In this document: positions 34,202 through 40,117 of the stretch, piece by piece | Layout: every line of letters starts with the position of its first letter | Numbering within the stretch: the stretch's first letter is position 1 | NCBI RefSeq assembly: GCF_026625745.1 | Contig: NZ_CP113061.1 | Location: forward strand, 372,001 to 436,000 | Source of the DNA: Asticcacaulis sp. SL142 | Lineage (GTDB): Bacteria > Pseudomonadota > Alphaproteobacteria > Caulobacterales > Caulobacteraceae | Reading direction: 5' to 3' | Length of the DNA: 64,000 bases | Position numbers and translations under genes: made by a program | Notes under the pieces: generated by a model | Database searches by the model: none | Told to the model about the DNA's origin: nothing | The model's input: only the letters and a program-made list of their open reading frames with translations

Positions 34202-36001
34202 ATGCACATCTACCGCTCACATACCTGCGGCGCCCTGCGCGCCACCGATGATCAGGCCGCTGTTCGTCTTTCGGGCTGGGTTCACCGCAAGCGCGATCAT
34301 GGGGGCTTGCTGTTCATCGATTTGCGCGACCATTACGGCCTGACGCAATTGGTGTTCGATCCGGCGACACCGGGCTTTGATAAGGTCGAACGCGTGCGCG
34401 CCGAAAGCGTCATTCGCATCGACGGCAAGGTCGTGAAGCGCACCAGCGATACCATCAATGCTAACCTGCCGACCGGCGAAGTCGAAGTGCAGGTCACATC
34501 GGTTGAAATCCTGAGTGAGGCTGCCGAACTGCCGCTGCCGGTGTTTGGTGAGCCGGAATACCCCGAAGAAATCCGCCTGAAAAACCGCTTCCTCGACCTG
34601 CGTCGTGAGACCCTGCATAAGAACATTGTGTTGCGCTCGCGCGTGATCCAGTCGATCCGCAACCGCATGGTCGAGCAGGGCTTTCTTGAGTACCAGACCC
34701 CGATCCTAACGGCCTCATCGCCGGAAGGGGCGCGTGACTTCCTGGTGCCGTCGCGTATGCACCCCGGCAAGTTCTACGCCCTGCCGCAAGCGCCGCAGCA
34801 GTTCAAGCAGTTGCTGATGGTGTCGGGCTTTGACCGCTATTTCCAGATTGCGCCTTGCTTCCGTGACGAAGACCTGCGCGCTGACCGTTCTTTGGAATTC
34901 TACCAACTCGACGTTGAGATGAGTTTTGTGACGCAGGAAGATGTGTTCGCGGCCATTGAGCCGCTGATGCACGGCCTGTTTACCGAGTTTGGCGAAGGTA
35001 AGCGCGTATCAAACTATCCATTCCAGCGCATCCCGTATCGTGAATCGATCGCCAAATATGGTTCCGATAAGCCGGACCTGCGCAACCCCATCGAGATGCA
35101 GGACGTGTCCGAGCATTTCCGAGGTTCGGGCTTTAAGGTGTTTGCGTCGATCCTAGAGGCTGATGCTAAAAACAAGGTCTGGGCAATTCCGGCTAAGACC
35201 GGTGGTTCGCGGGCGTTTTGCGACCGAATGAACTCATGGGCGCAGGGCGAGGGCCAAAAGGGTCTGGGCTATATCTTCTGGCGCACGCCGGAAGGGGCGT
35301 CTGAGGGCATTGAACCGTCGGGCCCGGTGGCTAAGAACATTGGCGACGAGCGTACCGAAGCTCTGCGTGGCCAATTGGGCCTTGACGCGGGTGACGCGGT
35401 ATTCTTTGTCGCGGGTAACCCGGACGAGTTCTATAAGTTTGCAGGGTTGGCGCGGACCAAGGTCGGCACGGATTTAGGGCTGGTTGACGAAGATCAGTTC
35501 CGTTTCTGCTGGATCGTTGATTTTCCGATGTTTGAGTGGAATGACGATGAAAAGAAGGTCGATTTCTCGCACAACCCGTTCTCGATGCCGCAGGGCGAGA
35601 TGGAGGCTTTGCTCACCAAAGACCCGCTCGATATCCTCGCGTATCAATATGACATCGTCTGTAACGGTTATGAACTGTGCTCAGGGGCGATCCGTAACCA
35701 CAAGCAGGACATCATGCTTAAGGCGTTTGAGATCGCGGGCTATGACGAAGCGTTTGTCGAAGCGCAGTTCGGCGGGATGCTCAATGCGTTTAAATATGGC
35801 GCACCTCCGCACGGCGGTCTGGCACCGGGTATCGACCGTATCGTGATGCTGCTGGCCGGCCAGACGGCAATCCGCGAAATCATCGCCTTCCCGCTGAATC
35901 AGCAGGGGCAGGACGTGATGATGTCGGCCCCTTCGGAAGCGCTTGATAAGCAGTTGAAGGAATTGTCGATCCGGACGGCGTTGCCGATCAAGGTTAGCTA
36001 A
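34202..36001 (+). CDS. aspS: Aspartyl-tRNA synthetase (bacterial type, probably non-discriminating)
   Basis: Class II synthetase, 599 aa. OB-fold anticodon-binding domain (1-110), catalytic core with [10 protein letters not shown] and motif 2 [17 protein letters not shown] near 215-230, the bacterial GAD insert (about 290-420), and motif 3 [13 protein letters not shown] near 535. The anticodon loop region reads RDHGG. E. coli, which is tRNA-Asp specific, has RDLGS, while Pseudomonas with His there also charges tRNA-Asn. Non-discrimination is thus likely and would need GatCAB. A TTGACA lies at 34125-34130 upstream. Confidence 0.96.
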
Positions 36002-36122: not shown

Positions 36123-36608
36123 TCAGCATACCGGGATGCGCAAACCCCGCGGCAATTGCGTTTCGCGATCCCCACACGCGCCGTCAAGCTGACGCTGTGT
36201 TAGGCCACGCGCGGAAGACATCTCAGCACCGGAAAAGTTCACGCCCGTCAGAGTGGCGCCTGAGAAGTTCGCGCCCTCAAGATAGGCCCCCACAAAGGTC
36301 GCATTGGTCAGGTTGGCCTTGGCGAAATTAGCATTAGAGAACAACGCGCCAAAGCCGTTCAGATCACGCAGATCGCCACCCGCAAACGACGTGCGGTTAA
36401 ACGACCCCAGGCTTAAGTCCGCTTGACGCAAACGCGCCCCGGCGAAGTTCTTGCCCTTAAGCTCACGATTGCTGAAATCGGCCTGAAACAGGTTGCAGCC
36501 CGCGCACGATGTTCCGCTTTGGGCCCTCCCGATCTGACCGGCATTTTGTGCGGCGACGGGGGAAGCGAGTACGGCCATAACTGCCAATAGCGACAACAAG
36601 CGTTTCAT
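36123..36608 (-). CDS. Exported pentapeptide-repeat protein
   Basis: About 161 aa from MKRLLSLLAVMAVLASPVAAQ, a clear signal peptide. The mature part has about 14 tandem A(D/N)LXX pentapeptides (ANFAKANLTNATFVGAYLEG and around), forming a right-handed quadrilateral beta-helix. Four cysteines: a pair near the start (SCAGCN) and one each near the end (GACGDRE, IPVC), which could form disulfides. No known ligand. In-frame ATG 15 bp upstream also possible. The 3' end adjoins the hairpin cassette. Confidence 0.85.
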   Translation of the reverse strand: MKRLLSLLAVMAVLASPVAAQNAGQIGRAQSGTSCAGCNLFQADFSNRELKGKNFAGARLRQADLSLGSFNRTSFAGGDLRDLNGFGALFSNANFAKANLTNATFVGAYLEGANFSGATLTGVNFSGAEMSSARGLTQRQLDGACGDRETQLPRGLRIPVC

Positions 36609-36661
36609 CTTAAGACACCTCAATCTGTTTCGTCGTGACTAAGCAAGACCGGTGCCAAAAA

Positions 36662-39442
36662 TCAACTGTCAGGCGGTAAATCCATGCCGATATCATCATT
36701 TGACGCTTTTTTGGCGAAGGGTATGACCACCAGATTATCGGTATTGGCCCCGCGCGCAAAACCTTTGGATATCAACTGAGATGCGCGGATGCCTTCGGAG
36801 TCGTTGGTCTGTTCCCCGTCCCCCAGACCATCGGCATTGAGCGCATCCGGATCAGCATTGGCAAGGTCCGTGCGATCAAGGTACGAAATCGCCAGTTCCC
36901 GGAACAGATAATCCAGAATGGAGGTCGATGATTTGATGGAGTCATTGCCGCTGACCGGGCCGGCCGGTTCAAAACGGGTGAACACGAACGCATCGACAAA
37001 TTCATCGAGCGGCACGCCGTACTGCAGGCCGATAGATACGGCGATGGCGAAATTGTTCATCATTGAACGGAAGGCAGCGCCTTCCTTATGCATGTCGATG
37101 AAGATTTCCCCGACGCTGCCATCGTCATATTCACCGGTGTGCAGATAGACCTTATGGCCGCCAACCGAAGCTTTCTGGATATAGCCCTTACGACGATCAG
37201 GCAGCTTTTGGCGCGAGCGGTCACGTTCAACGATCTTTTCCACCACCTTTGCCTGCGCAGGTTCCGGTTGTGGGCGGGCCTCAAGCAGATTACGCTTAGG
37301 CGCATCCTCAATGACCGGAATATCGAGATGGAAATCATCCGGCGGCGTGGTCGGTTGCAGGCTTATGGCGCGCAAATCCATATTGGCCGCCATCGACAAC
37401 AGTTTCAGGCTGTCGGGCAGGTTCTGGCCAAACGGAATATGGATGCGCGCGGCCGACGGCGCGCTTGAGAAACTCTCAAGCTTTTGTCGCATCAATAGCC
37501 GCGCCTTTAAACCGGGGGCCGTAAAGATGGCACGCTGGTTTTCGGTTAAGTTGTCAAAATCAGCTAATGTTTGATGACCAAAGATGAAGGCTTCGGCTTC
37601 GGCGATTTGCGCGGCGGTAAAGCCCATAACGGTTAACAGGTTATAGTCAGGACTTAAAATGTCCTCATCGCTGACGCCCCAGATGTCGCGCACGAAATCC
37701 TTATCGATAGTGTTGAAAACGTCGGTCAGGTTACGGGCGGTCAGAAGTGCCGCCTCAAGCCGCCCAATCTCAAAATCGGTCAAACCCCGCGCCTTAAGCT
37801 GGGGCGGCGACAGATAGGGCGCCTCAAACAGGGAGCGTGCCCCCAAAACATGCCGACGCGCATCGGCCAATGACGCACCCGCCCGTATCAGGCCCGCGAT
37901 GGTGGCCTCAGACAGGGTTTCAATAATCTCACCGTCTTCGGTTTCCAGTACCGACGTCAGACCCGAAAGTGGCTGATCATGCAGGCTAACCCCCAGTCGC
38001 AACGTCAGTTCCGGATCGTCAAACAGGGCCGTGGTCTGAGCGTGGCGCAAACCTGATTTCTTGGCCGTTTTCAACGCGTCCTGAATGAGCGTCAGACTAT
38101 GGGCCTTAAGGTCCGCGTGGCCCTTTAGGCTGGAAATTCGATAGATTTGCTGCGACAGGCTATGTAAAATCTGGTCTTTATCCGCGCTGAAGGTCTTATA
38201 GGCCCCATGCGATGTGGCCAGTTGCGCCGATATGTATAGACTTTGGGCTTGCATGGCGGCCATCAGACCTGCGGCAAAATCAAGCCCATCCGCATCTGCA
38301 GGACTGAGGTTCAAAGCCATCAATAACTCAGACACCCCGCCGATCGTCAGGGCCAGAGGGCGGTCAAAGCAACGCCTCAGCGCGTGGTCCTCGGTCGCAC
38401 TGAAAGCGGTGGCGGTTTCGATATCAAGCGCTAGGGTCCACAACGCCACGCACTGACTAAAGGCGGTAGCGTCAAAGCCCTTATCCGCATCGTAAAAACC
38501 GAACACATTAATCGCGGCCTTGGGCGCGAGCGCCTGTCCGGCCAAGGCTTGCGCATCCAACGGATCAAAGGTCAGATATAACTGCCCGGTTTCCTGAGCG
38601 ACCTGCGCCGCCAGACGCGCGGACGGATCACCGGCCGCGATCAGGGCGCGTGAAGCCAGAGCGATTTTGGGTTCATGCGGGGGGGAATTGGCGTCGATGG
38701 TCTGCTGCGACCAAGGCGGCAAAACGGCATCAGTGGCGGCATTTTGCGCCGATTGAATGGTCAGTGAGATCAAATGATCGCTGGCGCCGAGCTTACGCGC
38801 GGCCTGGGCGGCGCGGGCCAGGGCCGGATTATGGCGCAGGCTTGTGCGGTGGTCACCTTCGGCGCGGGCGATGGCGGTGGTAATCTCGTTCAGCGCGTCG
38901 TGTAAATGGGTGCGGGTGGTGCGTGAAATCTGGTCTGAGCGATAGGCTATCAAAAACTGGCGCAGATCACGGTCGCAGGCCGGATCATCTAGTTGCCAAA
39001 ACTTGGTCTCAGGCGGTTCCGGCACACGGTCACCGGCCAATGGGTGGATGCGATGACCGCTTTTCAGGGATAAGGCTGGCGCGGCATAGCCCAGCAGGAT
39101 GCTGGCGCGCAGTTCACGCAGGAAATGGGCCGCGCTTTGGGAATCTTCGAAATAACCCAGCGCATAGCCCCAGGCCGTCAGACGCTGCGCATACCGCTCG
39201 ACCGCGCCACCCAACGCCAGATCGAACGGATCGTCATGAACGATGCGGTGATCGATATCGGGGGCCAGTTGCGGCTGATCTTCGGGCAGGATATCGGCCC
39301 AGTCCAGCCACGCCTCCAGGCGGACGTTTGACCAGTCGCGCGGCGCTAAAATTTCATCGTAACCGTCGGGCCGTTCGATAAAGCGGTCTTCGAGACTGAT
39401 GTCATAGATCAGGCGGTTGGAAAAATCCGACTCTAAGCGCAT
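36662..39442 (-). CDS. Degenerate NrdJ-like protein with intact TSCPD domain (probable pseudoenzyme)
   Basis: 926 aa. Residues 81-125 ([14 protein letters not shown]...) match the N-terminal WGW-GGYF region of class II (B12-dependent) ribonucleotide reductase. Residues 312-412 ([13 protein letters not shown]...[14 protein letters not shown]...[13 protein letters not shown]) follow the barrel segment with FD-KGFD, LWT and LG-LL motifs. Residues 750-860 ([50 protein letters not shown]) are a highly conserved TSCPD domain. The whole protein has only three cysteines (156, 331, 358). The catalytic Cys motifs, the C-terminal Cys pair and the zinc-finger tail of NrdJ are missing, and it is about 270 aa shorter. 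A regulatory role is possible. Upstream DNA has NrdR- and DnaA-type sites. Confidence 0.8.
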
Positions 39443-39529
39443 GGCGTCGTGTCCCGTTCAATGTGGGCTAGGGGGTAATCTTAGGGCTGCATTAACCACT
39501 TATCAATAAATGTAGTTGGTTTGGTGCTT

Positions 39530-39569
39530 ATATCCACAATATATTGATCGGGTGAGCGGGTGTGGATAA
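39530..39569. promoter_or_regulatory. DnaA-box pair upstream of the NrdJ-like gene
   Basis: A perfect box (TTATCCACA on the minus strand) lies at 39561-39569 and an 8/9 match (ATATCCACA, plus strand) at 39530-39538, facing each other. They are 90-125 bp upstream of the NrdJ-like ATG in the 273-bp divergent gap. Confidence 0.6.
39534..39549. promoter_or_regulatory. NrdR-like box
   Basis: CCACAATATATTGATC matches the NrdR consensus acaCwAtATaTwGtgt at 12 of 16 positions, including the whole CACAATATATTG core. A poorer match lies 33 bp away (39501-39516); NrdR normally binds two boxes about three helical turns apart. Overlaps the weaker DnaA box. Confidence 0.5.
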
Positions 39570-39715
39570 TTGTGGCCACCGGCGCGATGTTAGGAAATTT
39601 CAGGGACTGTGGCTTTACCTCGGCATCGGGGATCACTATAGTAACTGCAAGTTTTTATGATCTGCCGGGTCTGTGATTCACGGGTGTGAATGGGGATTTT
39701 CGGATCAGTTACAGG

Positions 39716-40117
39716 ATGTTTGCCGTGTTAGCTAATATGTTTACCTGGTGGAGCAGTGCTACAATCGGAACCTTATGGACGATTGGCCGTCTGGGCAAAT
39801 TTGTCGGTTCCGATGAGTTCGGCAACAAATACTACGAAGCCCGCGACACCAAGGAAAGCTATGGCGACAAAAAGCGCCGGTTCGTGATCTACAAAGGCTA
39901 TGCCGATGCCTCAAAAATTCCACCCGATTGGCACGGCTGGATGCACTATGTCTACGATACGCCGCCGTCGGATACGCCGCTGCCGCGTAAAAGCTGGGAG
40001 CAGCCGCATTTGCCGAACATGAGCGGCACACCCTTGGCGCAATACCCAAAGGGCTCGCTCAACGCGCAGACCGAACGTCAGAAATCGACCGGCGATTACG
40101 AAGCCTGGAAACCGTAG
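39716..40117 (+). CDS. NDUFA12-family complex I accessory subunit
   Basis: About 133 aa. The conserved block FTWWSSATIGTLWTIGRLGKFVGSDEFGNKYYEAR matches NDUFA12 (B17.2), as does the WHGWMHYVYDTPP motif. This accessory subunit of NADH:ubiquinone oxidoreductase is found in alphaproteobacteria and mitochondria. The start is uncertain: ATG at 39716 or 39737, or an upstream GTG at 39686, none with a good ribosome-binding site. It precedes the DUF2155 gene by 12 bp; the aat-DUF2155-NDUFA12 neighbourhood is conserved in alphaproteobacteria. Confidence 0.9.
   Translation: MFAVLANMFTWWSSATIGTLWTIGRLGKFVGSDEFGNKYYEARDTKESYGDKKRRFVIYKGYADASKIPPDWHGWMHYVYDTPPSDTPLPRKSWEQPHLPNMSGTPLAQYPKGSLNAQTERQKSTGDYEAWKP

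Follow-up and report, generated by a model that had tools for sequence, protein, structure and literature searches.

An apparently degraded class II ribonucleotide reductase of Caulobacterales points to an independent function of its TSCPD domain

What does a ribonucleotide reductase (RNR) homolog do once its catalytic residues have gone? The question is raised by the window, the whole 64,000-nucleotide stretch of Asticcacaulis sp. SL142 DNA analyzed here, which lies in a single-contig genome of 3.7 Mb (G000) and encodes a relative of the class II enzyme NrdJ. An earlier note, made from the sequence alone, read this protein as an NrdJ homolog from its N-terminal WGY-GYF region through the barrel to the TSCPD domain, lacking the catalytic cysteines and retained for a noncatalytic role. 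The frame and its parts are as follows.

36662 to 39442, minus strand: putative degraded NrdJ ortholog of 926 aa with an ATG start (frame, Pfam, NCBIfam, and alignment)
36845 to 37213, minus strand: TSCPD (IscU-like) domain, approximately residues 744 to 866, without cysteine (Pfam, conservation, and an AF2 core pLDDT of ~95)
38024 to 38518, minus strand: RNR barrel remnant, residues 309 to 473 (PF02867 match and fold search)
38525 to 38566, minus strand: former finger loop, residues 293 to 306 (canonically [N/S]PCSE...C), with the catalytic Cys and Glu lost (alignment)
39023 to 39028, minus strand: deletion junction at residues 139/140, with ~105 canonical residues gone (alignment)

The barrel (PF02867, residues 309 to 473, 42.5 bits) and TSCPD (PF12637, residues 758 to 851, 39.8 bits) both matched above the Pfam cut-offs, and a WGYALGYF motif begins at residue 91, which bears out the assignment to the NrdJ family. 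The nearest sequences in the PDB were 7b9p and 7b9q, a B12-dependent RNR. The curated NrdJ models scored far below their cut-offs: NF005736 (PRK07562; NCBIfam, alphaproteobacterial NrdJ of 1222 aa) gave 383.6 bits against 1737, aligning residues 309 to 910 with model positions 490 to 1136, and TIGR02504 gave 50.1 bits against 399.95. Cysteines occur solely at residues 156, 331, and 358, as had been counted before, and alignment with canonical NrdJ found none of the four tail cysteines. At the thiyl-radical site, reference C476 is replaced by Leu295 and E478 by Ala297, while of the redox pair C199 is deleted and C487 is replaced by Ala306. The missing stretch, reference positions 169 to 273, includes redox Cys 199 and is the part that we take to hold the specificity-site loops of RNR. 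By its sequence, the gene once encoded a vitamin-B12-dependent enzyme for making DNA building blocks and has since lost the parts on which catalysis depends.

An alignment of 33 canonical NrdJ sequences (1195 to 1369 aa) with 60 degenerate homologs (769 to 1050 aa), the window protein among them, placed these losses in a wider context. The degenerate set was drawn from Caulobacterales homologs of more than 700 aa, frames of 700 aa or less being left out; the rows dropped were duplicates, other genes, or fragments (L001 to L005, L010, and L030 to L032), split or reverse cases (L074, L100, and L102), and duplicate genomes (L104, L105, L107, and L108). The C199, C476, and C487 columns held cysteine in all 33 canonical sequences and in none of the 60 degenerate homologs, and the [N/S]PC-E finger-loop motif was distributed in the same way (33/33 and 0/60), so that the reported absence of catalytic cysteines extends to the whole set. 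Cysteine was found somewhere within reference positions 484 to 490 in 8 of the 60 and within 473 to 479 in none. More than 80% of the 169-to-273 block was missing in 93% of the degenerate homologs, with four rows of family f3 still aligning 46 to 47 residues there. The tail cysteines were retained in 36 of the 60, and the 24 homologs lacking them comprised 23 of the genus of the window plus L080; the earlier statement that the tail is missing is thus correct for the window protein but describes a trait specific to its genus and L080.

Conservation of TSCPD was, as claimed, strong. Its median identity between the window protein and canonical NrdJ was 0.77, against 0.14 to 0.35 for the remaining regions; over the whole set the TSCPD median was 0.78 for degenerate-canonical pairs and 0.84 for canonical-canonical pairs, and outside TSCPD the degenerate-canonical medians were 0.14 to 0.37. 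That so small a domain is kept almost unchanged in many relatives suggests a second, previously undescribed job.

The earlier note called the gene a paralog and envisaged a true reductase elsewhere in the genome. The neighbors that bear on this are listed below; their names, and those of the genes farther out, are putative and do not come from annotation.

36123 to 36623, minus strand: pentapeptide-repeat-like protein, directly downstream of nrdJ (frame list and locus comparison)
39686 to 40117, plus strand: NDUFA12-like gene, the divergent neighbor that marks the nrdJ slot (locus comparison)
34202 to 36001, plus strand: aspS, on the opposite flank of the nrdJ slot (locus comparison)

Outside the genus, the surroundings of the degenerate gene were compared in 32 loci, none longer than 19 kb. 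Its companions there were NDUFA12 (31 loci), the pentapeptide gene (28), and aspS (25), and beyond NDUFA12 mostly DUF2155, aat, accC, accB, and aroQ, the same as in the window. The canonical nrdJ of L106, L107, and L108 adjoins the same NDUFA12 and pentapeptide gene, that of L104 adjoins aspS and the pentapeptide gene, those of L105 and L109 the pentapeptide gene alone, and that of L103 none of these; the window gene itself stands in the order NDUFA12, nrdJ, pentapeptide gene, aspS. The pentapeptide-repeat-like protein has an apparent signal peptide, and similar pentapeptide frames adjoin degenerate and most canonical nrdJ genes. Whole-genome searches, which covered class I and class II RNRs, found no canonical NrdJ or second class II enzyme; the window's TSCPD is the sole one in the genome, and the only other PF02867 locus is one 674-aa frame read as NrdA, with one NrdB found. 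Another reductase is therefore present, as had been expected, in the form of class I NrdA and NrdB and not of canonical NrdJ. Since the gene occupies the nrdJ slot and the genome yielded no further class II enzyme, degradation in place is indicated; by position, the window gene is a degraded NrdJ ortholog, and the paralog reading was ruled out by the single TSCPD, the one NrdA-like PF02867 locus, and the slot.

Across Caulobacterales, the NrdJ model matched all 249 genomes, a figure that is not a count of homologs, as weak matches can be NrdA; 49 genomes scored above the cut-off, and eight further ones, at 1173 to 1728 bits, were near-canonical or partial. NrdB was found in 245 of the 249, and three of the four genomes without it keep a canonical NrdJ. 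The degenerate gene was present without internal stops in all 25 genomes of the genus, the window's own included, being split over contig ends in G014 and G018. The window protein was matched in 139 of 149 family genomes and had no match in 10 (6 of the 133 good ones), and Caulobacter, Phenylobacterium, and Brevundimonas are among the named relatives. The TSCPD profile matched 262 of 387 class genomes and left 125 without a match; these absences, together with those in the family, indicate that the gene is not universally needed. Matches to the NrdJ model were weak (best E from 1e-15 to 1e-32) in G165, G236, and G244 of f4 genus g31 and in G026, G070, and G085 of f1 genus g3, the last three having no match to the window protein. 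Genus g31 and a few g3 genomes seem to be lineages in which the gene has been lost, and as such are useful for spotting partners lost along with it.

Could the gene simply be a vanishing relic that no longer does anything? A barrel without catalytic parts at ~20% identity and the existence of genomes that lack the gene would fit such a reading. However, dN/dS over 16 degenerate pairs was 0.06 to 0.30 for the body (saturated in one pair) and 0 to 0.056 for TSCPD, so that the body is also under constraint, less than TSCPD; TSCPD is conserved about as in canonical enzymes, and the box pairs described below are kept. The intact frames in all 25 genus genomes and the low dN/dS argue that this is neither a chance frame nor a decaying one, and we regard the relic reading as very improbable. 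Of the earlier reading, the noncatalytic character, the selection, and TSCPD as the retained part are all supported. An overlapping gene or RNA was ruled out as the cause of TSCPD conservation, as TSCPD dS was 0.5 to 1.6 times that of the body in 15 of the 16 pairs, the other being saturated. At gathering thresholds, Rfam gave no match anywhere in the window. In a protein tree of 52 rows, all 13 canonical rows fell on one side of one branch; with the largely shared missing block, this fits a single inactivation in Caulobacterales. A 40-row NrdB tree, in which GTDB families were not recovered cleanly, needs three changes, two of them forced by its starred branches.

The predicted structure bears on two further readings. 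In an AF2 model of the full protein (mean pLDDT of 77.6), most of the body was near or above 90 and TSCPD near 50; the best fold match in the PDB, 7b9p, is the class II RNR of Rhodobacter sphaeroides (E of 5.3e-23, TM of 0.54, rmsd of 9.4), with part of the first half of the ten-stranded RNR barrel missing. This modeled RNR-type fold agrees with the original assignment. With its RNR ancestry, a body resembling 7b9p might suggest a nucleotide sensor that uses the old allosteric specificity site, one of the roles floated in the earlier note. That role is unlikely, as positions 169 to 273 are missing and region 191 to 470 is just 16% identical to canonical sequences, and we give it very little credence. 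When TSCPD was modeled with 54 sequences, its core reached a pLDDT near 95 (of the two AF2 alignments, A3 drew on 34 of 80 genome loci and A4 on 53 of 83 nonredundant sequences). A search by sequence found no solved TSCPD structure in the PDB, the one match being at chance level, and a fold search of the PDB gave no significant match. Among the best 50 PDB matches listed, 16 were IscU/SufU-type chains, nonsignificant with a best E of 0.18. These matches, and the IscU-like fold described in the accessible part of PMC9669993, are what could be said for an Fe-S scaffold. Such a scaffold would have Cys ligands in the domain, and the TSCPD of the window has no cysteine, as is the case for all but 2 of the 60 degenerate homologs; the scaffold reading is hardly credible.

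TSCPD also occurs without any barrel. Among the TSCPD matches in the class, 50 low-scoring or odd ones were reexamined. At least nine genomes carried free-standing TSCPD frames of 277 to 301 aa, a count that leaves out G492, G510, G533, and G691 as well as G667, G607, and G686, in which apparently short frames run to contig ends. Five are f87 genomes, each a single contig of 1.2 to 1.3 Mb with loci of 27 to 28% GC, which on size and composition may be SAR11-like; in all five, the free-standing TSCPD lies between NDUFA12 and aspS, and PF02867 is solely NrdA-like. In the four f12 genomes it adjoins NDUFA12; two have only NrdA-like PF02867 matches, G614 has a second, longer match besides the NrdA-like one, and no PF02867 match was found in G677 (93% complete). 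At all nine f87 and f12 loci, TSCPD was 69 to 77% identical to that of the window where AccC was 50 to 59%. Degenerate NrdJ also occurred in three other alphaproteobacterial families (L326, 808 aa; L327, 912 aa; L330, 1085 aa), the losses being called from an alignment with three canonical sequences. All three lack the finger-loop motif, and their TSCPD is 69 to 75% identical to a canonical one. NDUFA12, DUF2155, and aat adjoin L326 and L330 but not L327. L330 still has a cysteine at the C487 column and, being nearly full length, may represent an early stage of degradation. The genome with L327 (G528) has a second partial TSCPD match at a contig end, and in L074 and L100 the degenerate body and TSCPD are on separate neighboring frames. 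The reverse arrangement was found at L102 (8005 to 10710, minus strand), where a barrel with NPCSE and the cysteine tail has TSCPD deleted. Loss of the catalytic motif with retention of TSCPD thus recurs in several lineages, and the reverse occurs once.

The free-standing proteins also speak to a thiol-disulfide shuttle, of the kind that NrdJb provides for NrdJa (PMC4520616, in the text available), now serving the class I reductase. The four tail cysteines of 36 of the 60 degenerate homologs would suit it. However, these are missing from the window protein and from 22 further loci of its genus, and each of the five f87 proteins has a single cysteine with TSCPD still conserved; we think this reading quite improbable.

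Of 61 viral TSCPD loci, 44 had TSCPD in a frame that also matched the barrel, 16 had a TSCPD frame of 194 to 266 aa in a locus that shows no barrel on that strand, and one (L238) had a separate 163-aa TSCPD frame beside a 729-aa barrel frame. A PF02867 search over the full length of 15 contigs with free-standing TSCPD (L221 being outside this set) and of that of L238 matched the contig of L238 alone. L210 (715 to 6352, plus strand) and 14 related viral loci carry a free-standing TSCPD-Zn gene next to one for a DnaB-like helicase; by Pfam, L210 encodes a YqaJ recombinase, an HTH protein, the DnaB helicase, TSCPD, and SSB. PHROGs groups such viral proteins with ribonucleotide reductases, and BFVD contains phage proteins, 136 and 184 aa long, that carry the name reductase.

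These loci supply the main rival reading, in which TSCPD has a direct part in DNA replication or repair, at a helicase, SSB, or the fork. The DnaB-like helicase adjoins TSCPD in 15 of the 15 cassette loci, with TSCPD preceding SSB in the 12 of 15 where SSB was found, and no RNR barrel accompanies TSCPD in the 15 contigs searched whole. Against this, the cassettes represent one viral lineage (their DnaB proteins are 64 to 76% identical to that of L210, and L212 is identical to L210), and most of these contigs are fragments of 4 to 15 kb, so that it is chiefly the four of 34 to 67 kb that say something about the absence of a barrel. L250 has none of the DnaB/SSB-type neighbors, and phages also put nucleotide-metabolism genes beside replication genes. 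The NrdR-type boxes point instead toward dNTP supply, and a direct replication role is in our judgment possible though unlikely.

The putative boxes upstream of the window gene are the following.

39534 to 39549, no strand assigned: NrdR-type box 1, 16.5 bits, GATCAATATATTGTGG in minus-strand orientation (matrix scan)
39503 to 39518, no strand assigned: NrdR-type box 2, CAACTACATTTATTGA, 31 bp from box 1 and weaker, 6.6 bits (matrix scan)

The 16-bp palindromic matrix was seeded with an NrdR consensus and then trained on the upstream regions of 40 nrdB genes, which gave CCACAATATATTGTGG. Published NrdR sites, according to the portion of PMC2892513 available, consist of two boxes ~31 to 32 bp apart, and the window has a predicted pair of palindromic boxes at this spacing, the second of them weak. 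Pairs 30 to 33 bp apart were found at 23 of 23 loci of the genus (related rows, not 23 independent cases), at 20 of 39 other degenerate loci, upstream of 22 of 40 nrdB and 2 of 33 canonical nrdJ genes, and in 0 to 0.7% of shuffles. A neighbor control used real upstream regions from the 32 loci outside the genus at a spacing of 31 or 32: pairs preceded degenerate nrdJ in 11 of 31 cases and NDUFA12, which has the same intergenic region, in 10 of 31, whereas the twelve other neighbor genes had pairs in 0 of 245 and single sites of at least 9 bits in 6 of 245. Upstream scores for the split frames L074 and L100 fall inside the gene body and are meaningless. All 10 f4 degenerate copies are without boxes (below 9 bits), and no box pair was found for any of six free-standing TSCPD genes; the NrdR link is therefore lineage specific. 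The nrdA gene of the genome has one site of 10.2 bits, 9 bases before its start, and no pair. The window's pair (39503 to 39549) lies in the intergenic region common to the NDUFA12-like gene, which could be coregulated through it. Riboswitch control was set aside, no match having been found in seven loci, as was a defense system, for which PADLOC gave no match.

The best explanation, which we moderately favor, is that an NrdJ ortholog was degraded and lost catalysis while TSCPD was kept for a job of its own under an NrdR-type promoter, with a partner in dNTP supply. The starting point is that the known catalytic and redox residues are gone, with conservation of TSCPD nearly at the level of the canonical enzymes. 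Because its box pair resembles that of nrdB, the protein is probably produced together with the class I reductase at low dNTPs. The job of TSCPD would be independent of NrdJ catalysis, and the degenerate barrel may act as a folded carrier that positions or oligomerizes it. Least certainly, TSCPD might bind a dNTP-supply partner, most likely NrdAB, and tune its assembly or activity. A role in dNTP supply by way of NrdAB is a tentative working guess; that TSCPD works without the reductase is well supported, and of this we are considerably confident. Several observations count against the explanation. In L102, the protein has lost TSCPD. Canonical nrdJ genes have pairs in just 2 of 33 cases, the second box of the window is weak, and nrdA has no pair. 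G318, a 92% complete draft, has the degenerate gene and no NrdB match.

The best reading is of a noncatalytic NrdR-regulon protein with TSCPD as its probable working part, acting on dNTP supply or replication. More broadly, we consider it fairly probable that TSCPD forms a self-sufficient module, with a conserved task of its own in Alphaproteobacteria and some of their phages, and that class II reduction is just one setting for it. After death of the reductase the module would often survive, either attached to a pseudo-reductase or as a free-standing protein; in Caulobacteraceae it would have become an accessory under NrdR control that serves class I dNTP synthesis or the replication fork. As judged from sequence comparison, the pseudo-reductase is real and widespread, and it exposes a function of the TSCPD/IscU-like domain that stands apart from the reductase.

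CCNA_01966 is drawn as the Caulobacter NrdJ in a B12 pathway figure (PMC6538847, in the part available). The control genome of Caulobacter vibrioides has TSCPD and an NrdJ-model match below the cut-off only, and in a MAG of C. vibrioides the protein (L112) is 884 aa long and lacks the catalytic motif; because of these homologs, CCNA_01966 is probably not a reductase. A tail domain whose role, according to the available text of PMC9669993, has not been reported is here split from catalysis both ways. This separation in both directions makes the function of TSCPD testable by simple deletion in a tractable group that includes Caulobacter.

Reuse of a dead large RNR subunit has a parallel in the herpesvirus R1 homologs without RNR activity, which are viral and derived from class I and, to our knowledge, have no TSCPD domain. 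For bacteria such as these, the accessible parts of the open-licence literature searched gave no description of a dead NrdJ. A few Alphaproteobacteria have two NrdJ proteins, only one with the cysteine-rich domain (PMC5704485, section 5, as far as available), a case different from a single degraded NrdJ. NrdJb, of the split class II RNR of Pseudomonas aeruginosa, has the IscU-like domain, which also occurs in free-standing relatives, some of them with its cysteine tail (PMC9669993 and PMC4520616, in the portions available); the window protein, in contrast, has no thiol tail, and its genome yielded no barrel of the NrdJa type. The closest system is alphaproteobacterial NrdJ (NF005736/PRK07562), the adenosylcobalamin-dependent class II RNR, with which the window protein has in common the slot, collinear sequence, a predicted RNR-type fold, and TSCPD, but from which it differs in lacking the catalytic, redox, and tail cysteines, the finger-loop motif, and ~105 residues of the first half-barrel. 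The C-terminal domain of class II RNRs is described as IscU-like in PMC9669993, whose available text does not mention it apart from an active reductase; by position and fold it is most likely the TSCPD domain, which is found here without one.
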